Assembly: GCA_905235575.1 (NCBI GenBank)
Contig: CAJOLZ010000015.1
Location: forward strand, 1-64,000
Length of the DNA: 64,000 nucleotides
Direction: 5' to 3'
Origin: an uncultured Bacteroidaceae bacterium
Lineage (GTDB): Bacteria; Bacteroidota; Bacteroidia; Bacteroidales; Bacteroidaceae
Shown: one piece after another, positions 14,175 to 60,174 of the stretch
How positions within the stretch are numbered: position 1 is the first letter of the stretch
How the letters are laid out: each line of letters begins with the position of its first letter
The notes under the pieces: model-generated
The model's database searches: none
What the model saw: the letters and a program-made list of their open reading frames with translations, nothing else
What the model was told of the DNA's origin: nothing
Translations under genes and position numbers: made by a program

Positions 14175-14200
14175 CCCATCTTGCATGGAACGATGAAAAA

Positions 14201-14280
14201 CGCAGCGTGGTGCGACGGCCGTCGCACCACGCTGTGTTTGCTGTCGCACCACGTTGCGTTTCACGTCGCACTGTGGTGCG
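14201..14280. repeat. 22-bp-phased dyad array, locus A (4 units)
   Basis: CGCAGCGTGGTGCG-ACGGCCGT-CGCACCACGCTGTG-TTTGCTGT-CGCACCACGTTGCG-TTTCACGT-CGCACTGTGGTGCG. Confidence 0.9.
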
Positions 14281-14293
14281 TCTTCTGTTTCTT

Positions 14294-22660: not shown

Positions 22661-23632
22661 ATGCCATCATTCAGCCTGCGCAGATTCGTCCTTGCCGTTA
22701 TTCTGACCATACTCCCCATCGGGATGACGGCGCAGAAGACCTATAAACTGAAGAAATGGCACGTCCCTGCTGCCCACTACAGCGGCATCACGCCGATGGG
22801 TGACGGGCGCTATGCCGTGGTCTCCGACGAGGAGTCGCAGGCTGGTTTCTACGTTTGGCGCGTGGAGATAGATACGCTGAAAGGCCGCGTGCGGAACGTC
22901 AGCGACGAGGGCTTCCGTGGCGTTGCCTTCGACATCGACCGCGATGCCGAGGGCGTGGCTTTCTGTCCGCCGTTGCAGACCGTTTTCGTGAGCGGCGAGG
23001 CCGACCAGCGCATACTGGAACACAGGATCGACGGCACGCTGACGGGGCGCGAACTGGCTGTCCCGACCGACTACGGCAAGAGCCGCATACAGGCGAATCG
23101 CGGATTCGAGGCGCTCGGATACGACAGCCTGCGCGCGAGTTTCTGGACCAGCCCCGAGTCGCCGCTGCAGGGCGAGAGTGGCTTACGGGTGCCGCTCCTG
23201 CGGTTCGGTACCGACTTGCGCCTGCAACAAACTGTTGATTACGAGCTGGATGCACCACAGGCTCGCAACCACGGACGCGACCACTACCACGGTGTTGTGG
23301 CCATCACGCCGATGGCCGACGGCACGTTGCTCATCCTGGAGCGCGAGGCTCGCATTGCGCGTCGTTACAGTGGAAGCCGATGCTGGTGCCGCCTCTATCA
23401 GTTCGACCCATCGACGGGTACCAAACGCCTGCGCTCGCAGTGGTGCACACGTCTCACACCCACCAATTCGCGTTTCTCGAACTACGAGGGCATGTGCCTC
23501 GGTCCCAAGCTGGCTGACGGACGGCAGACCGTGCTGCTCGTGGCCGATTCCCAGGGAGGATATGGCCGCGCGCTGTGGCATCTGCGCGACAAGCTGCGCC
23601 TGCTCATTCTGGAGCCCGAAGAGCAGGAATAA
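22661..23632 (+). CDS. Esterase-like activity of phytase family protein
   Basis: Signal peptide; YSGITPMGDGRYAVVSDE, NRGFEALGYDSL, SRFSNYEGMCLGPKLADGRQTVLLVADSQGG. Confidence 0.75.
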   Translation: MPSFSLRRFVLAVILTILPIGMTAQKTYKLKKWHVPAAHYSGITPMGDGRYAVVSDEESQAGFYVWRVEIDTLKGRVRNVSDEGFRGVAFDIDRDAEGVAFCPPLQTVFVSGEADQRILEHRIDGTLTGRELAVPTDYGKSRIQANRGFEALGYDSLRASFWTSPESPLQGESGLRVPLLRFGTDLRLQQTVDYELDAPQARNHGRDHYHGVVAITPMADGTLLILEREARIARRYSGSRCWCRLYQFDPSTGTKRLRSQWCTRLTPTNSRFSNYEGMCLGPKLADGRQTVLLVADSQGGYGRALWHLRDKLRLLILEPEEQE

Positions 23633-23633
23633 T

Positions 23634-23955
23634 CATTACAATTCTCGGTTCCTATTTCGTCTCGGAATTCATTTTCTACGCTTGCATCGTGTTTCGTCAC
23701 CTGACGCACCACGTTGCGATGGCTGTCGCACCACGGTGCGTTTTCCCGAAAACAGCGTTCCTTGCGGAATTTCATCGGTGGAACGAACTGGATGCAAAAT
23801 TTTCGATTACTGAGAATCAGACGCTTACATTTCCGCCGAATTGAGGTCTTCACCCCTGCGCAGCGAAGGTCACCCATTCTCATCGCTCTTCACGATGCTT
23901 TTCGACACCCCTCGCGATGCTCTTCAGTGAAGCAATCTTCCGATTATGTTACATC
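23634..23955 (+). repeat. Long (about 310 bp) dispersed non-coding element, copy 1, containing dyad array B (3 units, first degenerate)
   Basis: Array TGCATCGTGTTTCG-TCACCTGA-CGCACCACGTTGCG-ATGGCTGT-CGCACCACGGTGCG at 23683-23740, then blocks shared with 53630-53950 and 57731-58050. Confidence 0.75.
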
Positions 23956-24813: not shown

Positions 24814-25025
24814 GTGAGAGCTTTCGCAGTAAGGCACAAAAAAGAGGAAACGTACAATACGCTTCCTCCGTTTGGTAACCCGCTTGGGGCTCGCGCTCGG
24901 CTCCGTGAGCCGCTTTCAGAGCGTAGCGGTTGAAAGAACCCTTGGGTGAGAGCCTTTGCAGTAAGGCACAAAAAAGAGGAAACGTACAATACGCATCCTC
25001 CGTTTGGTAACCCGCTTGGGGCTCG
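24814..25025 (-). repeat. Duplicated (about 80 bp, offset 132 bp) tRNA-Lys 3' end plus its terminator
   Basis: 24814-24893 and 24946-25025 are near-identical (GTGAGAGC.TT.GCAGTAAGGCACAAAAAAGAGGAAACGTACAATACGC.TCCTCCGTTTGGTAACCCGCTTGGGGCTCG). Confidence 0.85.
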
Positions 25026-25080
25026 AACCCAAGACCCCCACATTAAAAGTGTGATGCTCTACCAACTGAGCTAGCGAGTC
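25005..25080 (-). tRNA. tRNA-Lys(TTT)
   Basis: Reverse complement folds as a cloverleaf: GACTCGC acceptor, GCTC/GAGC D stem, TCACA-CTTTTAA-TGTGG anticodon arm (TTT), TTGGG-TTCGAGC-CCCAA T arm, encoded CCA. Confidence 0.95.
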
Positions 25081-26291: not shown

Positions 26292-26463
26292 GCTTTTATT
26301 CTTTTTTATCGGAGGTATCTGTTCTCGGTCCGGCGATGCCGTTGCCCGAATCTGCATCTTTCGTCCTTCGGTGTCTGTTTCTTCCACAAAGTTACGACTT
26401 CTTTCGCTAATTCTCAAAGCTTTCCGCCCGATTTATTTCATCCCTTCCGTCAACGTGGCGAAA

Positions 26464-26543
26464 TGCACCGTGCTTTTCGGGCTGACGCACCACGTTGCGA
26501 CAGCTTGCGCACCACGCTGCGACGCCCGTCGCACCACGGTGCG
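26464..26543 (-). repeat. 22-bp-phased dyad array, locus C (4 units, first degenerate)
   Basis: TGCACCGTGCTTTT-CGGGCTGA-CGCACCACGTTGCG-ACAGCTTG-CGCACCACGCTGCG-ACGCCCGT-CGCACCACGGTGCG. Confidence 0.9.
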
Positions 26544-26649
26544 TTTTTGACACGAATCAGTCATCACGTGCCGAAGCAGTGGAAATCGTACTGAAATTTT
26601 GGTAGTTCGGCCACTTCTTCGTAATTTTGCCGAGAAAAGACGCACGTAG

Positions 26650-31704: not shown

Positions 31705-31740
31705 ACAGTTTCGGAGGGCCTGACTGAGAAATGTTAAAAA

Positions 31741-31820
31741 CGCACCGTGGTGCGTTGGCCATCGCAACGTGCTGCGTCGGGCGTCGCACCGTGGTGCGTT
31801 TCCTGTCGGTCCACGGTGTT
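31741..31820 (+). repeat. 22-bp-phased dyad array, locus D (4 units, last degenerate)
   Basis: CGCACCGTGGTGCG-TTGGCCAT-CGCAACGTGCTGCG-TCGGGCGT-CGCACCGTGGTGCG-TTTCCTGT-CGGTCCACGGTGTT, preceded by AAAAA. Confidence 0.9.
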
Positions 31821-31827
31821 CGTGAGG

Positions 31828-35413: not shown

Positions 35414-35629
35414 GTGTTGAAAAATATGCTTACTTGGTGAATCGATGTTTATCGGCTGCCAGTCCGTGCCGCAGCCCGTCGGGAAAGTCCTCGCGAGGAG
35501 GGGCGAATGGCGCTTTGGCTTCGTGGCATGTGTGGCTTGTCTTGACGTCGGTTTCAATAGGTTTATTATGAGTGACTTATGTATCTGTCTGCGGCGATTA
35601 TGCCCAATGTTGTGCGATGTGCCGGAAAA

Positions 35630-35709
35630 CGCACCGTGGTCCGTCGGCTGTCGCACCGTGGTGCGCAGGCCTTCGCAACGTGGTGCGACGGGCGTCGCAC
35701 TGTGGTGCG
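35630..35709 (-). repeat. 22-bp-phased dyad array, locus E (4 units)
   Basis: CGCACCGTGGTCCG-TCGGCTGT-CGCACCGTGGTGCG-CAGGCCTT-CGCAACGTGGTGCG-ACGGGCGT-CGCACTGTGGTGCG flanked by GAAAA and TTTTG. Confidence 0.92.
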
Positions 35710-35737
35710 TTTTGTCTCACGTTGCAGCATTCGGCCT

Positions 35738-40090: not shown

Positions 40091-40119
40091 ATTTCTGATG
40101 AATGATTTATTTCTATTTG

Positions 40120-40212
40120 CAAAGGTACGAATAAGCGCGCAAAGCGCAAAGCGAAAAAGCAATTTTCGGTTTTGAGATTTCGAGTGAGCGTACGTCAGGA
40201 TGTAATTCAAGC
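40120..40212 (-). promoter_or_regulatory. metG promoter cassette
   Basis: Minus strand TTTG-CGCTTTGCGCGCTTATTCG-TACCTTTG; about 90 bp shared with the argS upstream region. Confidence 0.75.
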
Positions 40213-40287
40213 GAACGAATGGTGAGTGAAGTGCCAAAACTCGTTTTCAGACGCCTTTTCAGAGCGGCACTTTGATATGCCGAAAAA

Positions 40288-40367
40288 CGCACCACGCTGC
40301 GACGGGCGTCGCAACGTGGTGCGCAGGCCGTCGCACCGTGGTGCGTCAATCGATTTTCCACGGTGCG
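40288..40367 (+). repeat. 22-bp-phased dyad array, locus F (4 units, last degenerate)
   Basis: CGCACCACGCTGCG-ACGGGCGT-CGCAACGTGGTGCG-CAGGCCGT-CGCACCGTGGTGCG-TCAATCGA-TTTTCCACGGTGCG, flanked by AAAAA and TTTTTTT. Confidence 0.92.
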
Positions 40368-40411
40368 TTTTTTTATCCAGCGAATTTGTGGGGAGAAATT
40401 CAAGGCATTTT

Positions 40412-43015: not shown

Positions 43016-43040
43016 CTCGTAGCAACATTTATTTTCGGTG

Positions 43041-43114
43041 CAAAGGTACGGATAAGCGGGCAAAGTGCAAAGCGAAACGTCACTTTTCGGTTTTTCATCT
43101 TCGGGCGAGCGCGC
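43041..43114 (-). promoter_or_regulatory. Promoter cassette upstream of 42296..43015
   Basis: Minus strand TTTG-CACTTTGCCCGCTTATCCG-TACCTTTG. Confidence 0.75.
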
Positions 43115-43131
43115 TTTTGTCCCTCTGAAAA

Positions 43132-43211
43132 CGCACCGTGGTGCGACGGCCGTCGCACCACGGTGCGCAGCCTGTCGCAGCACGCTGCGTCAGAGCGAAA
43201 AGCACGGTGCG
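43132..43211 (+). repeat. 22-bp-phased dyad array, locus G (4 units, last degenerate)
   Basis: CGCACCGTGGTGCG-ACGGCCGT-CGCACCACGGTGCG-CAGCCTGT-CGCAGCACGCTGCG-TCAGAGCG-AAAAGCACGGTGCG. Confidence 0.93.
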
Positions 43212-43326
43212 TCGTCATGCCCCTTCCGGAGCACCTCTCTACGAACGGATAAAATATGATGATTTCGCCTGAAATCCTTGCCTTTCTGAAAAAGTTTTTT
43301 TATTTTTGTATTCGAAATTCCACGGA

Positions 43327-46568: not shown

Positions 46569-46572
46569 ATTG

Positions 46573-46603
46573 CAAAGGTACAAATAAGCGAGCAAAGTGC
46601 AAA
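46573..46603 (-). promoter_or_regulatory. Promoter cassette upstream of LpxL-type gene
   Basis: Minus strand TTTG-CACTTTGCTCGCTTATTTG-TACCTTTG. Confidence 0.75.
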
Positions 46604-46645
46604 ATTTATTTTGTCTTTCACTCGCAATAAGCGTATCGCGGAAAA

Positions 46646-46724
46646 CGCACCACGTTGTTACGGTTGACGCACCACGTTGCGCAGGCCTTCGCAGCACGCT
46701 GCGACGGGCGTCCACCACGGTGCG
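46646..46724 (-). repeat. 22-bp-phased dyad array, locus H (4 units, one with 1-bp deletion)
   Basis: CGCACCACGTTGTT-ACGGTTGA-CGCACCACGTTGCG-CAGGCCTT-CGCAGCACGCTGCG-ACGGGCGT-CCACCACGGTGCG flanked by GAAAA and TTTTT. Confidence 0.9.
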
Positions 46725-46745
46725 TTTTTCGGAGCACTTGCGAAG

Positions 46746-51581: not shown

Positions 51582-53381
51582 TTACATTCTTTCGGGCACT
51601 TCAATGCCGAGCAGTCTCATTCCGTTTCTGACCACTTGCGACACGGCGGCCGAGAGCGCCAGACGCACGGTGCGCTTGTCGGCATCCTCTTCGCGCAGTA
51701 CGCTGAAGTCGTGGTAGAACTGGTTGTATTCCTTCACCAGCTCGTAGCAGTAGTTTGCAATGCAGCTCGGGTTGTAGTCGCTGCCAGCCTGCCGTACGGC
51801 GTTTGCAAATCCTTGCAGGTGCTGGATGAGGCTTATCTCCTTGTCGCTGAGCTCGGCTGTCTGCGGCAGTGTCTCGGGAATCTCCATGCCTTGCTCGGCT
51901 GCCTTGCGCAGGATGCTGCGTATGCGGGCGTAGGTATATTGGATGAAGGGACCTGTGTTGCCGTTGAAGTCGATGCTTTCTTCGGGATTGAAGAGCATGT
52001 TCTTGCGGGCGTCGACTTTCAGGATGAAGTATTTCAGTGCGCCCATGCCTACGATGCGTGCAATTTCTGCCGCCTCGTCGTCGGTGATGCCTTCCAGTTT
52101 GTTCACCTTGTCGGCGCTCATCTGGCGTGCGTCGTCAATCATCGTCTGTATCAGGTCGTCAGCGTCCACCACTGTTCCCTCGCGGCTCTTCATCTTGCCG
52201 TTGGGCAGTTCCACCATGCCGTATGAGAAGTGCACGAGGTCCTTGCCCCACTTGAAGCCCAGCTTGTCGAGCAGGATGGAGAGCACTTGGAAGTGGTAGT
52301 TCTGCTCGTTGCCCACCACGTATATCATCTTGTCGATGGGGTAGTCCTGGAAGCGCAGTTTGGCGGTGCCAATGTCCTGTGTCATGTATACGCTGGTGCC
52401 GTCAGAGCGCAGCAGGAGCTTCTCATCGAGCCCTTCCTTGGTGAGGTCGGCCCACACGGAACCGTCGTCGCGGCGATAGAAGAGACCCTTCTCCAGTCCT
52501 TCCTCCACCTTCTCCTTGCCTTCCAGGTAAGTTTCGCTCTCGTAGTATATCTTGTCGAACGATACTCCCAGCGCGCGGTATGTCTCGTTGAATCCGGCGT
52601 ACACCCATTCGTTCATCCGCCGCCACAGGGCGCGCACTTCGGGGTCGTTCGCCTCCCAGCGCACCAGCATCTCGTGTGCCTCCTTTATCAGGGGTGCTTC
52701 CTGCTTGGCCTGTTCCTCGTCCATGCCGCCGTCCACGAGTTCTTTCACCTCCTGACGGTAGTGCTTGTCGAAGGCCACGTAGTAGTCGCCAATCAGGTGG
52801 TCGCCCTTCTTGCCGCTCGTTTCGGGTGTCTCGCCGTTGCCCCATTTCAGCCAGGCCAGCATGCTCTTGCAGATGTGTATGCCGCGGTCGTTCACGATGT
52901 TGGTTTTCACCACACGATTGCCGTTGGCCTCCATCACCTGTGCCAGCGCCCATCCCAGCAGATTGTTGCGCACGTGACCCAGATGGAGCGGCTTGTTCGT
53001 GTTGGGACTGCTGTATTCTATCATCACCAGCGGGCTCTCGTCCGTCACGGGAACGAAGCCGAAAGTCGGGTTCTGCTGTATCTCCTGAAGCAACTGTATC
53101 CACTGGGCTGCGCTGATGCTCAGGTTCAGGAATCCCTTCACCACGTTGTATCGGCTCACCACGTCGGGCACGCTCTCCAGCAGCCGCTTGCCTATGTCTT
53201 CGGCTGTCTCCTCGGGACGCTTGTGGCTAATGCGCAGAAACGGGAACACCACCAGCGTCAGTTCACCTTCGAATTCGGGGCGTGTCGCCTGCAACTGAAC
53301 GGCCTCAGCAGCCACCTCCTGGCCGTACAGGTCTTTGATGCCAGCCACCACGGCAGCCACTATCTTTTTGCTTATTTCCAT
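51582..53381 (-). CDS. argS: Arginyl-tRNA synthetase
   Basis: VMIEYSSPNTNKPLHLGHVRNNLLGWALAQVMEANGNRVVKTNIVNDRGIHI; YVVGNEQNYHFQVLSILLDKLGF; GKMKSREGTVVDADDL. Confidence 0.97.
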   Translation of the reverse strand: MEISKKIVAAVVAGIKDLYGQEVAAEAVQLQATRPEFEGELTLVVFPFLRISHKRPEETAEDIGKRLLESVPDVVSRYNVVKGFLNLSISAAQWIQLLQEIQQNPTFGFVPVTDESPLVMIEYSSPNTNKPLHLGHVRNNLLGWALAQVMEANGNRVVKTNIVNDRGIHICKSMLAWLKWGNGETPETSGKKGDHLIGDYYVAFDKHYRQEVKELVDGGMDEEQAKQEAPLIKEAHEMLVRWEANDPEVRALWRRMNEWVYAGFNETYRALGVSFDKIYYESETYLEGKEKVEEGLEKGLFYRRDDGSVWADLTKEGLDEKLLLRSDGTSVYMTQDIGTAKLRFQDYPIDKMIYVVGNEQNYHFQVLSILLDKLGFKWGKDLVHFSYGMVELPNGKMKSREGTVVDADDLIQTMIDDARQMSADKVNKLEGITDDEAAEIARIVGMGALKYFILKVDARKNMLFNPEESIDFNGNTGPFIQYTYARIRSILRKAAEQGMEIPETLPQTAELSDKEISLIQHLQGFANAVRQAGSDYNPSCIANYCYELVKEYNQFYHDFSVLREEDADKRTVRLALSAAVSQVVRNGMRLLGIEVPERM

Positions 53382-53414
53382 ATTCGCTATACCTTATATA
53401 TATTATTTTTCGCG

Positions 53415-53594
53415 TGCAAAGGTACGAATAAGCGAGCAAAGTGCAAAACGAAAAGGAAATTTTCAGTTTCGCACTTTCGAGCGGAAGTACGTTCGAACGC
53501 AGTTCAAAGGTGTGAATAAGCGAGCAAAGTGCAAAACGAAAAGGAAATTTTCAGTTTCGCACATTCGGGCGAGAGTACGTTCGAACGCAGTTCA
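53415..53594 (-). repeat. 88-bp tandem duplication of a promoter-containing cassette upstream of argS
   Basis: AATAAGCGAGCAAAGTGCAAAACGAAAAGGAAATTTTCAGTTTCGCAC.TTCG.GCG.(A/G)AGTACGTTCGAACGCAGTTCAA occurs at 53427 and 53515. Confidence 0.95.
53417..53447 (-). promoter_or_regulatory. argS promoter (proximal copy)
   Basis: Minus strand TTTG-CACTTTGCTCGCTTATTCG-TACCTTTG, 36 nt from start codon. Confidence 0.8.
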
Positions 53595-53629: not shown

Positions 53630-53950
53630 AATACTTACACTTTTCTGAGCGCATTCTCTGGATGAATTGAATTTTCGCTTTCGCAGCATGTTTCGTCGGC
53701 TGTCGCACTGTGCTGCGACGGGCGACGCACCACGCTGCGTTTTTCTGCGGACCGCGTTTTCAGACCGAAATCAGGGCGGACGAAATAATTTTGCAGAATT
53801 TTCGATTGCTGATAATCAAGGGGTTGAGATTCCGTTGTTTCCTGCTGCGCATGCTGTTGCACCGAACATCATCCATTCTCATCGCTCCTCACACCCTTTT
53901 TGGGAGCCCCTTGCAGTCGGCCGTTTGTGCGAATCTTCCGATTTCCTTAC
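53630..53950 (+). repeat. Long (about 310 bp) dispersed non-coding element, copy 2, containing dyad array I (3 units)
   Basis: Array CGCAGCATGTTTCG-TCGGCTGT-CGCACTGTGCTGCG-ACGGGCGA-CGCACCACGCTGCG at 53682-53739, then shared blocks with copies 1 and 3. Confidence 0.75.
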
Positions 53951-54439: not shown

Positions 54440-56425
54440 TTATTCCTGCGGCGCTTCTTTGTCCTCGTTCTTCATCTGCTCGTCCACAGCCTTGATTTTC
54501 TCGGCCAGCAGGTTGAGCTCGTCGCGCAGCTTGTCCACTTTCTTCTTCATGGTGTCCACGAGCGAATTGCCCTTCTTGCTGCTCGAAGTGAGGAAGCCCA
54601 GGTTGTTTTCGTAGGTCTTCAACTCGTCGCGCATCTTTTCGTATGCACGCATCATGCGGTTGCGCTCTGCTGTCAGCCCGCCTGCTTCCTTCTCGAACTT
54701 CTGAGCCAGATTGCTTCGGAAGTTGTTCAGACGGCGCTTTGCCTGCTCGGCACCCAGCGAGTCGTAGAGTTTGTCGCATATCTCACGGTATTCCTTGTAG
54801 AGCTTGTCCTTGTCGCGGAAGGGCACGTGACCCACCTCGCCCCATTTCTGTTGCAGTGCGCGCACCTGTTGCAGCACATTCTCAGTGCCTTCCTGGGTGA
54901 GTGCTTTCAGCTGTTCAATGATGTCGCGCTTCTGTCCCAGATTGGCGTTTTCCTCTTCGCGCTGCCCTGCGGTAGCTGCTTGTTTGGCCTCGAAGAATTG
55001 GTCGCATGCGCTGACGAAGCGTTTCCACAGCGCTTCAGAGTATTTGCGGGGCACTGCGCCAATCTCTTTCCACTGCTTCTGCAGCTGTACAAGTGTGTCG
55101 CCCGTCCGTCGCCAGTCGGTGCTTTCGCGTAACGCTTCGGCTTTCTCCACCAGTTCCTTTTTGCGTGCCAGGTTGACATTCAACTCTTCTTTCAGTCGCT
55201 GGAAGAATTCAGATTTCTGTGCAAAGAACTGGTCGCATCCCTTGCGGAAACGCTCGAAGATCTGATTGTTCATCTTTTGCGGCGCATATCCGATGGTCTT
55301 CCATCGTGCCTGCAGGTCGATGATTTTCTGTGTGATGCTTTCCCAGTCGGCAAACGACTTCAGGCTGTCAGTGCCGATGGCCTCCAGTTCTTCGCATAGC
55401 GCTGTCTTGGCTGCGAGGTTCTCCTCTTCGCGCGCCTTGAGGTTCTCGAAGTGTGCCTGGTGGCGTTTGTTGATGACGGTGGAGGCTGCCTTAAAGCGGT
55501 CCCATATCTCGTCGCGCAGGTTCTTGGCCACAGGTCCGGTCTCCTTCCATTCCTGATGAAGACCCTGCAGTTGGTTGAAGGCTTGTATCACGTCGGGCAC
55601 ATCGGCCAGCGCCTCGGCTTGCTCACAGAGGCGTGTCTTTATTTCAAGGTTCTTGCGGAAGTCGTAGTCACGCAACTCGTGGCCCAGTTTCAGCAGGTCG
55701 TAGAATTTCTCCACGTAGAGCTGATAGTTCTTCCACAGTTCGGTTGCTCGTTCGGCGGGCACCGCTTTTATTTCTTTCCATTCGTTCTGCAGTGACTTGA
55801 ACTCGCTGAAGGCCTGATTGGCTTCTTCTGGTGTGGCTGCCAGTTGCTGTATGCGTTCCAGTATGGCCAGTTTGCGTTTCAGGTTGTCCTGTTTCTGTTG
55901 TTCGAGTGCTTCCTGCATGGCGGCGCGCCGTTCGCGTATGATTTGCATGGCGGCGCGGAACTCGGGCTCTGTGGGATCGATCTGAGGAATGAACTTGTCG
56001 GCCTCGCCACCGCTTTCGATGAAGGTGCGGAAGGCTTCTTGCATTTCTGCATTGTGATATTTGTAGAAGAGCACTTTCAGGTGGTCCACCTCGCTTTTCT
56101 CGCCGGCATCTTCGCCAGAGGCAATCTCCTTGATGCGCGCCACCACTTCTTCTTTGGTGAGTGTGGCAGGCGTCTCGGTCCCCTCTTCCTCTTCGCCTTC
56201 GTTTTCTGCTTCGGTCTCACCTTCGGCTTCTGGCACGGGTATGCTTTCCGTCTCAGGTTCGGGCGTGGGCTCGCTTTCGGCGGGCGTCTCGGCTGTGGGT
56301 TCTTCTACTTCGGGCGTGTCTTCAGGTGTGGTCTGTACGTCCTGAGGCACACTCTGTCCGGTCACTTCTTTCTCAGCAGACTGCTCAAGGGCAGTAGTCT
56401 CGTTAGTCTCTAAAGAGTCCATCAT
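54440..56425 (-). CDS. DUF349 domain-containing protein with acidic/proline-rich N-terminus
   Basis: Repeated units such as ...FRKGCDQFFAQKSEFFQRLKEELNVNLARKKELVEKAEAL and WKEIGAVPRKYSEALWKRFVSACDQFFE. Confidence 0.88.
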   Translation of the reverse strand: MMDSLETNETTALEQSAEKEVTGQSVPQDVQTTPEDTPEVEEPTAETPAESEPTPEPETESIPVPEAEGETEAENEGEEEEGTETPATLTKEEVVARIKEIASGEDAGEKSEVDHLKVLFYKYHNAEMQEAFRTFIESGGEADKFIPQIDPTEPEFRAAMQIIRERRAAMQEALEQQKQDNLKRKLAILERIQQLAATPEEANQAFSEFKSLQNEWKEIKAVPAERATELWKNYQLYVEKFYDLLKLGHELRDYDFRKNLEIKTRLCEQAEALADVPDVIQAFNQLQGLHQEWKETGPVAKNLRDEIWDRFKAASTVINKRHQAHFENLKAREEENLAAKTALCEELEAIGTDSLKSFADWESITQKIIDLQARWKTIGYAPQKMNNQIFERFRKGCDQFFAQKSEFFQRLKEELNVNLARKKELVEKAEALRESTDWRRTGDTLVQLQKQWKEIGAVPRKYSEALWKRFVSACDQFFEAKQAATAGQREEENANLGQKRDIIEQLKALTQEGTENVLQQVRALQQKWGEVGHVPFRDKDKLYKEYREICDKLYDSLGAEQAKRRLNNFRSNLAQKFEKEAGGLTAERNRMMRAYEKMRDELKTYENNLGFLTSSSKKGNSLVDTMKKKVDKLRDELNLLAEKIKAVDEQMKNEDKEAPQE

Positions 56426-56537: not shown

Positions 56538-57464
56538 TTAAATCCATGTTTTTCGCTTGAAATACCACCAAAAGAGGACTGTTATGCCCACCGAAAGCAC
56601 CATGGCGAACGGAAAACCCCATATCCACTCTTCCATGCCGTTTTTCAGGTTCATGCCGAAGAGGCTGGCAACGAGTGTGGGGAACATGAGGATGATGCTG
56701 ATGCTGGTGAGCAGTCGCATCACGGAGTTCATGTTGTTGTTGATGATGTTGGCGTAGGTGTCCATCGTCGAGTCGAGGATGTTGGCATAGATGCCGGCCG
56801 ACTCGCGTGCCTGGCTCATCTCGATGTTCACGTCTTCGATGAGATCTTTGTCCAGTTCGTCCACGGGAAGTTTGAACTTCAGTTTCGAGAGCAGCGTCTC
56901 GTTGCCGCGGATGGAGGTGATGAAGTAGGTCAGACTGTCCTGCAGTTTCGAGAGGCGGATGAGGTCGGCGTTGTCGATGTTGTGGTCCAGGTTGGCTTTC
57001 GATTTCTCGATGAGCATGTTTATCTGTTTCAGTCGTTTCAGATACCATACCGAACTGCTCAGGAAGAGGCGGAAGACCATGTCCACCGAGTCGGTGAAGC
57101 CCACGTCGCGCTTCTGCTGGAACGAGACGAAATCAATCATCATGTTGGTCTCGAAGTTGCACACCGTGATGCATTTCTCCTTTTTCAGTATGATGCCCAG
57201 GGGAATGGTGGTATAGGGCGTGCGCGAGCGTACCTCTTTCACGTACGGGATACGCAAGATGATGAGCACCCACCCGTTGTCATATTCGTAGCGGGCGCGC
57301 TCGTCGGTATCGGCAATGTCGTTCAGGAAATAGTCGGGGATGCCCAGTGTCTGTTCCAAATAGTCGGAATCGTCTTGAGTGGGGCAAGTCACTTGAACCC
57401 AGCAGTTGGGTTCCCAATCACTGATGGTGCGCAGACCATTCGTAGTGTTCCAATAGGTTCGCAT
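56538..57464 (-). CDS. CorA-family magnesium transporter
   Basis: FPTLVASLFGMNLKNGMEEWIWGFPFAMVLSVGITVLFWWYF (GMN motif, two C-terminal TMs). Confidence 0.9.
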   Translation of the reverse strand: MRTYWNTTNGLRTISDWEPNCWVQVTCPTQDDSDYLEQTLGIPDYFLNDIADTDERARYEYDNGWVLIILRIPYVKEVRSRTPYTTIPLGIILKKEKCITVCNFETNMMIDFVSFQQKRDVGFTDSVDMVFRLFLSSSVWYLKRLKQINMLIEKSKANLDHNIDNADLIRLSKLQDSLTYFITSIRGNETLLSKLKFKLPVDELDKDLIEDVNIEMSQARESAGIYANILDSTMDTYANIINNNMNSVMRLLTSISIILMFPTLVASLFGMNLKNGMEEWIWGFPFAMVLSVGITVLFWWYFKRKTWI

Positions 57465-57604
57465 CGTTCTTCTCCTTTGTTAGTGGTTAGCACTGATGGG
57501 GCTGCCCCATGAGTGCTGCGATGCGTCTCATTGGGACTGCCTACAAATTTGTTTTCTCCGCCGGATAGTCGTCCATTTTCAGTTTTTATTTGTGATTTCG
57601 ACCG

Positions 57605-57636
57605 CAAAGGTACAAAGAAGCATGCGAAAAAACAAA
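57605..57636 (-). promoter_or_regulatory. corA-like promoter (non-cassette)
   Basis: TTTG-N20-TACCTTTG on minus strand, but spacer unrelated to the cassette family. Confidence 0.6.
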
Positions 57637-57730: not shown

Positions 57731-58050
57731 TTCCTTACACTTTTCTCGCCCTTTTTTCTCGCAGAAGACGAAAAAACGTGCTGCAGCGTGTTCCGTCGGA
57801 TGTCGCACTGTGCTGCGACGGCTGTCGCACCACGGTGCGTTTCCGCTCGAAGCGCAATTATGCACATAAAACTTGGGCGCGAAAGTCAATTCGCGAAAAA
57901 TAGGATTGCTGTGAATCAGGCACTTGAAAATTCGTCGCTGCGGAGCACGCACGCTGTCGCAACCTATGCCACCGATTCTCACGCTTGCTCACGTCGTTTT
58001 CCGAGACCCCTTGGGACATGCGTTGAGTGACATTCTTCCGAATTCGTGAC
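57731..58050 (+). repeat. Long (about 310 bp) dispersed non-coding element, copy 3, containing dyad array J (3 units)
   Basis: Array TGCAGCGTGTTCCG-TCGGATGT-CGCACTGTGCTGCG-ACGGCTGT-CGCACCACGGTGCG at 57782-57839, then shared blocks with copies 1 and 2. Confidence 0.75.
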
Positions 58051-58103: not shown

Positions 58104-58511
58104 TCAGAACGAGAGCGAGCGGCTTCCGTCGGGTTCCTCTTGAATGGTGGCGCGTATGGCGTCGTCGGGCAGCAGTTCCTCCACCAATTCGGGCCATTCC
58201 ACCAGACACAGGTTTCCGCTCTGGAAATACTCCTCGCACCCCATGTCGAAGGCTTCGGAGAGACGGCGTATGCGATAGAAATCGAAGTGATATATGGGCT
58301 CTTGCGTGGCGTCGCGATACTCGTTCACGATGGCAAAGGTGGGCGAGGTGACCACGTCTTCCACGCCCAGCGCCTGACATAGGGCACGTATGAACGTAGT
58401 CTTTCCGGCGCCCATGGTGCCGTAGAAAGCCACCACGCGGCGTTCGTCGAGCGCCTGTGCGAATTGGGTGGCGGCCTGGGGGAGCGTGTCGAGGGTGAAG
58501 GATATTTTCAT
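58104..58511 (-). CDS. tsaE: tRNA threonylcarbamoyladenosine biosynthesis ATPase TsaE
   Basis: VVAFYGTMGAGKTTFIRALCQALGVEDVVTSPTFAIVNEYRD...IYHFDFYRI. Confidence 0.95.
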   Translation of the reverse strand: MKISFTLDTLPQAATQFAQALDERRVVAFYGTMGAGKTTFIRALCQALGVEDVVTSPTFAIVNEYRDATQEPIYHFDFYRIRRLSEAFDMGCEEYFQSGNLCLVEWPELVEELLPDDAIRATIQEEPDGSRSLSF

Positions 58512-58623: not shown

Positions 58624-60174
58624 CTATTCTCGTTTCTTGGCCTGCATCGTTATCAGTGGAATGAGCATCTCCTCCATGCTGATGCCTCCGTGCTGGAAGG
58701 TGTTCTTGTAGTAGCCTACGTAGTAGTTGTAGTTGTTGGGATAGGCGAAGAAGTCCTCGCCGAGTGCAAAGATGTAGGCCGTGCTCAGGTTGGGCGACGG
58801 CAGTCCGGCCTGGTGCGGCTCTTTGATTTCGAACACTTCGCGTGCGTTGTATCCCAGACTCTTGCCCAACTTGTAGCGCAGGTTGGTGTTGGTGTTACGG
58901 TCGCCCACCACTTTGACGGGGTTGTAGCATCTGATGCTTCCGTGGTCGGTGGTGAGCACCACCTTGTAGTCTGTCGTGGCAAGTGCGCGGAAGAGTTCGC
59001 TCACGGGCGAATGGCGGAACCAGCTGAGCGTGATGCTGCGGTAGGCGGCCTCGTTGCTGGCCAGCTCGCGTATCATGCGGCTTTCGGTGCGGGCGTGGCT
59101 GAGCATGTCGATGAAGTTGAGCACCACCACGTTGAGGTCGTACTTCTGGAGCGACGGCAGCTGTGCGAGCAGCTTCTCGGCTGCGGACGAATCGTTGATT
59201 TTATGGTACGAGAACGTGTTGCGCAGACGGTAGCGGTCGAACTGAGTCTTGATGAGCGGTGCCTCGTTCAGGTTCTTGCCCTCCTCCGAATCCTCGTCCA
59301 CCCACAGATCGGGGAACATGCGCTCGATGATGTTGGGCATCAGTCCGCTGAAGATGGCGTTGCGCGCATATTGCGTGGCGGTGGGCAGGATGCTGCAGTA
59401 TAGGTTCTCCTCGATGGCGAAGAGGTCGGCCAGCTCGGCATAGAGCGTCCGCCACTGGTCGTAGCGGAAGTTGTCGATGACGATGAGAAAGACCTTCTCG
59501 CCCTGCTTGAGGTGGGGGAAGATGTTGGTCTTGAAGATGTCGGGGCTCATGGTGGGACGCTCGTCGGGATGTGTCATCCACTGCATGTAGTTCTTCCGGA
59601 CGAACTTCCCGAACTGTGTGTTGGCCTCGGTGCGCTGCATGGCCAGCATCTCCTTCATGTTGCTGTCGGTGTCGGACAGCTGCAACTCCCAGTCGGTGAG
59701 CCTCTTGTAAACCTCGTTCCACTCCTCGATGGTATGTGCGTCGTTGATTTGCATCCCCAGCTTGCCGAAGTCCTGGCTGTATGCCGTCTGTGTCACCTCG
59801 GTGACAATCTCTCGCTGGTGAATGTTTTTCTTGAGCGTCAGCAGAATCTGTGTGGGGTTGACGGGCTTTATCAGGTAATCGGCAATTTTTGCACCGATGG
59901 CCTGCTCCATGATGTTCTCTTCCTCACTCTTGGTGACCATCACCACCGGTGTGGCAGGCGTCTGCTCCTTGATGCGGCTCAGTGTCTCCAGTCCGCTCAG
60001 GCCCGGCATGTTCTCGTCGAGCAGGATGAGGTCGAAGGTCTGTTCCATGCAACGGTCGATGGCATCATATCCGTTGGTTACGGTCTCCACTTCGTAGCCT
60101 TTCTTCTCGAGAAAGAGAATGTGCGCCTTCAGCAGTTCAATCTCATCATCCACCCAAAGCAGTCTGTATGTCAT
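58624..60174 (-). CDS. porX: PorX-type response regulator with PglZ/alkaline-phosphatase-like effector domain (T9SS regulator)
   Basis: RLLWVDDEIELLKAHILFLEKKGYEVETVTNG...LILLDENMPGLSGLETL receiver; VFLIVIDNFRYDQWRTLYAEL and ILPTATQYARNAIFSGLMPNII effector. Confidence 0.92.
   Translation of the reverse strand: MTYRLLWVDDEIELLKAHILFLEKKGYEVETVTNGYDAIDRCMEQTFDLILLDENMPGLSGLETLSRIKEQTPATPVVMVTKSEEENIMEQAIGAKIADYLIKPVNPTQILLTLKKNIHQREIVTEVTQTAYSQDFGKLGMQINDAHTIEEWNEVYKRLTDWELQLSDTDSNMKEMLAMQRTEANTQFGKFVRKNYMQWMTHPDERPTMSPDIFKTNIFPHLKQGEKVFLIVIDNFRYDQWRTLYAELADLFAIEENLYCSILPTATQYARNAIFSGLMPNIIERMFPDLWVDEDSEEGKNLNEAPLIKTQFDRYRLRNTFSYHKINDSSAAEKLLAQLPSLQKYDLNVVVLNFIDMLSHARTESRMIRELASNEAAYRSITLSWFRHSPVSELFRALATTDYKVVLTTDHGSIRCYNPVKVVGDRNTNTNLRYKLGKSLGYNAREVFEIKEPHQAGLPSPNLSTAYIFALGEDFFAYPNNYNYYVGYYKNTFQHGGISMEEMLIPLITMQAKKRE

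Follow-up and report, generated by a model that had tools for sequence, protein, structure and literature searches.

A dispersed intergenic DNA module with two end sites, a palindrome array and an IHF-type core in a rumen Bacteroidaceae genome

Introduction

Non-coding repeats in bacteria tend to be interpreted as the remains of decaying transposons or as RNA hairpins, and readings of both kinds had been offered for a stretch of "about 310 bp" at three loci in 64,000 nucleotides of an uncultured Bacteroidaceae genome (the window: positions 1 to 64,000 of contig CAJOLZ010000015.1). This sequence-only reading described an element built around a "3-unit array" that could be an ancient non-autonomous, MITE-like element or a structured RNA family, with the short arrays found elsewhere as possible minimal derivatives. 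Here we ask whether an extended element exists at these loci and, if so, whether it is best understood as a mobile element, an RNA or a DNA site.

Reality and copy number of the element

The element is real, genome-wide and larger than first described. Iterated profiles recovered approximately 76 near-full-length copies of a non-coding module of approximately 320 bp, located between genes, from the whole source genome (a rumen Bacteroidaceae MAG of 2.49 Mb). A blastn search of the genome, which had been suggested with the original description, found 54 places using a single copy as query, about 20 of which cover most of the element at 65–71% identity. The three window stretches share one orientation, are alignable over 320 bp and measure 319–321 bp, and all contain the previously named blocks in the order given. 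Their array was counted differently, comprising two good 14-bp palindromes and one degenerate unit at 22-bp spacing instead of three units. Profiles built from 71 copies outside the window contig, with the array omitted, matched the three window copies at E-values of 2e-44, 8e-43 and 2e-37 (columns 114–320) and about 1e-5 (columns 1–50), compared to best values of 0.26 (right part) and 0.09 (left part) among the controls, which were 10 first-order shuffles and the reversed sequence of the window. Identity outside the array is thus clearly better than in shuffled sequence, whereas an equal match to shuffled sequence would have spoken against an extended element.

Table 1. Positions of the element, its parts, its neighbours and related repeats in the window. 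Column n of the family corresponds to window position 53630+n in copy 2.
Feature	Family columns	Window position	Strand	Remarks
Copy 1		23632..23952	+	321 bp, one 1-bp insertion; profile match
Copy 2		53631..53950	+	320 bp, no indel; profile match
Copy 3		57731/57732..58050	+	320 bp, no indel; profile match
Left-end site, consensus (GAAATA)ATCCTTACACTTTTCT	1-16	53631..53646 (copy 2)	+	conservation boundary
Left-end site, other copies		23632-23647 (copy 1); 57731-57746 (copy 3)	+	
Array of 14-bp palindromes CGCACCACGGTGCG, 22-bp period	72-112	53702..53742 (copy 2)	+	alignments
A/T tract GCAGAATTT, upstream of IHF-type site	163-171	53793..53801 (copy 2)	+	alignments
IHF consensus WATCARNNNNTTR as AATCAAGGGGTTG		53814..53826 (copy 2)	+	67/74 copies exact at these columns
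IHF consensus as AATCAGACGCTTA		23815..23827 (copy 1)	+	column position and sequence
IHF consensus as AATCAGGCACTTG		57914..57926 (copy 3)	+	column position and sequence
Right-arm blocks GCACCGAACATCATCCATTCTCATCGCTCCTCAC and TTTTTGGGAGCCCCTTG	228-283	53858..53913 (copy 2)	+	alignments; repeat family D8
Right-end site, consensus AATCTTCCGATTTCNTTAC(A)	302-320	53932..53950 (copy 2)	+	sharp right boundary
Right-end site, other copies		23934-23952 (copy 1); 58032-58050 (copy 3)	+	
Neighbours of copy 1: phytase-like gene (+), HSP20 gene (+)				phytase-like TAA stop overlaps left end of element; Pfam
Neighbour of copy 2: argS		51585-53381	-	Pfam
Neighbour of copy 2: DUF349 gene		54443-56425	-	Pfam
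Neighbour of copy 3: corA		56541-57464	-	Pfam
Neighbour of copy 3: tsaE		58107-58511	-	Pfam
Free-standing arrays, same 22-bp-spaced palindromes		14197-14284, 26460-26547, 31737-31824, 35604-35713, 40262-40371, 43128-43215, 46642-46729		
Separate intergenic repeat GCAAAGGTACGAATAAGCGAGCAAAGTGC		40117-40204, 43038-43125, 53414-53589, 46571-46604, 57603-57636		up to 88 bp

Architecture and IHF-type core

Conservation sets in about 6 bp before the left-end site, with background levels outside, and ends within one or two bases after the TTACA of the right-end site. The two end sites, about 312 bp apart, have similar motifs in direct orientation. Inside the element the degenerate unit precedes the palindrome array, and the A/T tract ahead of the core has AAA and TTT exchanged as blocks between copies. 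Columns 284–300 are unconserved in sequence and fixed in length.

Internally, conservation is highest at WATCARNNNNTTR, whose place is fixed (columns 184–196) within the conserved core segment TGANAATCAAGCGGTTA (columns 180–196). This consensus matches exactly in 67 of the 74 copies and with at most one mismatch in 73, compared to a background of 7 matches when 70 kb of the contig was scanned on both strands, the three window copies included. Both R positions are A or G, at about 1 bit each, and an A-tract (AAAATTT or AAAAAAT at columns 165–171) lies ahead of column 184, corresponding to the described IHF consensus and its usual upstream A-tract (PMC9820253, PMC9519438). Judged by its sequence the core is an IHF-type site, a term that names the site and not a proven protein. 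The genome has four matches to PF00216 (HU/IHF), at loci C3:34899, C2:247, C41:6967 and C41:7275, including one adjacent pair downstream of a rimO-like gene; no DNABII protein passed the NCBIfam cut-offs for IHF alpha or IHF beta, with IHF and HU models matching below their cut-offs, and the binder could therefore be an HU-like protein or something else. The locus L333 (1752–2738; G000:C41) encodes a 328-aa protein that begins with an HU/IHF-like domain, continues with a hydrophobic middle segment and ends in a LysM-like part; its gene adjoins a small IHF-like gene.

Distribution in congeners

Twelve of 139 congeners, in addition to this genome, have profile matches at E 1e-6 or better. Long matches among them occur in G135, G112 and G126 only, the others matching mainly the array. 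The right-end pattern CTTCCGAWWTNNKKACA has 33 exact matches in this genome (reversed control pattern, 0), six in G112, four in G070, three in G135 and none in most congeners; one G070 match and the matches of G079, G126 and G158 fall in sequence that looks coding. A 46-bit right-arm pattern found nothing in 85,488 species genomes, a set from which the window's own species was possibly left out. G135 and G112, which are about 80% identical to this genome in genes such as argS, have the same architecture with other array units (GGAACACGTTCC in G135, CAACGCGTTGT in G112), and the exact IHF consensus is present in only 9 of 22 G135 copies and 8 of 14 G112 copies. In several G135 and G112 copies, including L171 and L149, the right arm resembles CCCAAAAACGGGCTTTTTTGCCCCATTTTGGGG with A/T tracts approximately 10 bp apart, and could be intrinsically bent, which is not so in the window's family. 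The right end of two G070 copies (C64, L222; C21, L218) and one G009 copy (L216) bears a 19-bp inverted repeat (GAACCTTCCGAAATCTTGA ... TCAAGGTTTCGGAAGGTTC, 12-nt loop) that is absent from the window's family.

Length and helical spacing

Copies of this family differ considerably in sequence and hardly at all in length. Mean pairwise identity is 0.59 across 74 copies and 0.62 across the best 27, among which 93 columns are near-random, and neutral copies with that many near-random columns would be expected to show many indels. In fact 57 of the 74 lack any indel relative to the 320-column consensus, and eight lack exactly 10 bp, in every case within columns 216–267. Between left end and core, 60 of 68 copies here, 13 of 19 in G135 and 6 of 11 in G112 measure 178 bp, a distance kept in two related species despite sequences that have diverged almost beyond recognition. 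Other values are mostly 188, 189 and 200 bp (+10, +11, +22), the few low ones being misplaced left anchors. Core to right end measures 134 or 124 bp here and 124 or 125 bp in G135 and G112, and in G070 the two end sites are 286 bp apart in both copies seen. Spacing in these elements changes in increments of roughly one or two helical turns. Phased A-tracts across the whole element gave a 10–11 bp spectrum not above the null in this genome, and we thus make no claim of intrinsic curvature for the element as a whole.

Coding and RNA readings

No frame is open in all copies, as noted previously, and no 3-base periodicity of conservation was found in the element copies; a coding reading was dropped on these grounds. 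A structured non-coding RNA family, one of the two original proposals, would account for conserved non-coding blocks and for palindromic units able to form hairpins. The covariation analysis suggested for it gave 18 column pairs above the permutation maximum among 68 non-redundant copies, of which 17 are at a distance of 1–2 (relatedness being uncorrected and local pairs approximate). These are A/T tracts switching as blocks between TTT and AAA, for example at columns 42–45, 139–140 and 169–170. The sole long-range pair (272–295) is barely over the maximum and complementary in 65% of copies, and what is robust in this result is the lack of helices. Consistent with it, the RNAalifold covariation term is 0.03, Rfam reported only a tRNA in the window and no element match at gathering threshold, and the element occurs in either orientation relative to genes. 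The RNA reading is already largely refuted and we regard it as extremely improbable. The element is a double-stranded DNA module comprising two end sites, a palindrome array near the left one and, between them, an IHF-type site preceded by an A-tract.

Mobility versus maintenance

The other original proposal, an ancient MITE-like element, holds insofar as copies are dispersed, sharply bounded and mostly in non-orthologous places. It falters on the ends, which bear a direct-orientation motif in place of terminal inverted repeats, and on the flanks, where left/right identity is not above that of shuffled partners and no target site duplication is detectable. The copies are moreover nearly indel-free, recent duplicates are under purifying selection (below) and a PF01797 search of this genome (88% complete) found no Y1 transposase. 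A classical MITE therefore fits poorly. Mobilisation by IS200/605 or RAYT elements, suggested by TTAC at the ends, was rejected on the same PF01797 result. No gene-carrying extended copy was found among the matches (the transposase search covering Y1/PF01797), nor was there any plasmid or phage match; a single IMG/VR pattern match was not an element by profile.

Purifying selection is evident from six recent pairs, in which conserved columns change at 0.22–0.33 times the rate of others (p 0.0001–0.001), the conserved set having been defined without the tested copies. Some positions are also retained between species. Among G135/G112 flanks, only the gene for a TolC-like 437-aa protein is accompanied by an element in all three species with side and strand preserved, and for 4 of 15 G112 copies there is a G135 copy next to the same genes, again with side and strand preserved. 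At one of these four loci (L162/L177) both flanks and many diagnostic bases are common and the array differs. Taken together, individual copies appear to be under constraint at their own sites, and the whole set has undergone turnover between species.

A broader mobile reading takes the two direct end sites as recombination or transposition ends of a non-autonomous element, with the IHF site and phasing serving the excision or synapsis complex of a trans-acting transposase or recombinase. Dispersal between genes in both orientations, sharp boundaries, flanking same-orientation end sites (nearly identical in G070) and differing positions between species would all suit such an element, as would similarity between closest copies that can stop at the left end; IHF-bent short loops are also typical of recombination complexes. 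The lack of inverted-repeat, duplication, Y1 transposase, plasmid and phage signals argues against it, as do selection in recent pairs and the orthologous loci kept in G112 and G135. Even the closest pair reaches only 88% identity, so there is no sign of recent movement. We consider this reading possible but doubtful, and the elements may earlier have spread by transposition.

Similar pairs among the copies at C1:43727, C24:47182, C8:97, C11:42385, C33:242 and C7:398 share 97–219 bp of flank beyond the right end and nothing beyond the left, a pattern that would suit a breakpoint at the left end.

Genomic context

The 117 neighbouring genes are ordinary housekeeping genes without any gene-class association, and orientation relative to replication, judged by GC skew of the flanks, is only slightly biased (-0.013 +/- 0.005). 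An operator or promoter function, in which a dimeric global regulator occupies the array and is looped to promoters by the IHF-type bend, would be in keeping with an array and bend resembling enhancer/promoter looping, and with the position of 31 of 73 copies between divergent genes compared to 6 between convergent ones. That excess is modest against intergenic length in this window, however, distances to gene starts range from a few bp to several hundred, the neighbours are unrelated and no Bacteroidetes -33/-7 promoter motif occurs at a fixed place in the element. We consider such a function improbable. Elsewhere in the window (58627–60174, -) a response regulator with a PglZ domain has the domain make-up of PorX.

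Comparison with known systems

E. coli BIME-1 elements number of the order of 70–100 copies per genome. They combine REPs with an IHF-interacting segment (RIB/RIP; PMC2817692) and, like the present elements, are dispersed intergenic units joining palindromes to an IHF-type segment. In BIME-1, which is shorter, two inverted REPs flank the IHF segment, whereas here the array is on the left side only, two same-orientation end sites delimit a fixed 320 bp, no Y1 transposase was found and the phylum differs. A cognate RAYT, a criterion for BIMEs and REPINs, had no match here (PF01797). As in REP/REPIN and RAYT systems, the palindromes are intergenic, species-specific and different in sequence between related species, and the free-standing arrays resemble tandem REPs; unlike REPs, the units have a 22-bp period and no GTAG head. 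Lambda attP and P1 parS are IHF-containing complexes, each a single functional site with a known cognate protein. They share with this element an IHF-type bend and flanking protein-binding sites at helically phased spacing, and differ from its approximately 76 dispersed copies with no known partner.

The BrickBuilt MITE of Porphyromonas gingivalis, an intergenic and species-restricted element with a 23-nt tandem array within leader and tail segments, is the nearest element described in the order, being likewise an intergenic Bacteroidales element with a short-period tandem array (PMC4596501). Its IS5-like terminal inverted repeats, variable unit number and length (1 to 23 units, 84–991 nt) and frequent truncation are all absent from the present family, and the parts of its description consulted mention neither an IHF site nor a palindrome (PMC4596501). 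No paper describing the present family was found in searches of an open-access library, which is not proof that none exists.

Proposed function

The best reading, which we hold with modest confidence, is that of a vertically retained nucleoprotein element bent by a DNABII protein, working, by analogy, like E. coli BIME-1 with a new architecture. We infer bound proteins and a biological role as follows. IHF bends DNA by up to about 160 degrees, and a DNABII (HU/IHF family) dimer would bend the core as sharply. Further dimers would cover the array on one helix face, since a 22-bp spacing is close to two turns. The left arm, carrying these dimers, would meet the right arm in a defined nucleoprotein complex or loop, for which helical phasing would be required. 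The two end sites would come together or bind a further protein. Because copies are kept, stand between unrelated genes and have no fixed promoter distance, we favour an architectural or topological role. In this view the elements, placed between transcription units, probably serve the architecture or topology of the chromosome, a role also proposed for BIME-1.

We further advance, as a rather unlikely extension, that they represent a previously undescribed class of looping element, in which a DNABII-bent loop of approximately 29–30 helical turns would be set by the two direct end sites, the recognition sequence of the array would change from one species to the next together with that of the free-standing arrays, and a DNA-binding protein and its approximately 76 to 150 sites would co-evolve as a chromosome-organising system in Bacteroidaceae. 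The preservation of helical-turn spacing in about 76 copies and across drifted species, around a site of architectural-protein type, makes dispersed DNA-bending or looping sites a concrete hypothesis to test in a family whose chromosome organisation is little known, and the copies provide a natural library of sequence variants for finding the bound proteins.

Free-standing arrays and other repeats

More than 75 short arrays occur elsewhere in the genome, made of the same palindrome units as the element. They do not look like truncated elements, contrary to the suggestion that they are minimal derivatives: profile matches are nearly all either near full length or array only, and no IHF consensus lies within 300 bp of any of the seven free-standing window arrays. 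These arrays often end in AAAACGCACC and GGTGCGTTTT and are found in divergent, convergent and codirectional gaps. They are probably REP-like and possibly act as terminators.

The separate GCAAAGGTACGAATAAGCGAGCAAAGTGC repeat is tandem at 53414–53589, upstream of argS, and pieces of 50–60 bp that resemble it, found in many element flanks, probably represent the same leader. An 80-bp direct duplication (24814–24893 and 24946–25025, 96% identical) overlaps the end of a tRNA gene (25008–25080, -) and looks like a partial duplication of the tRNA end.
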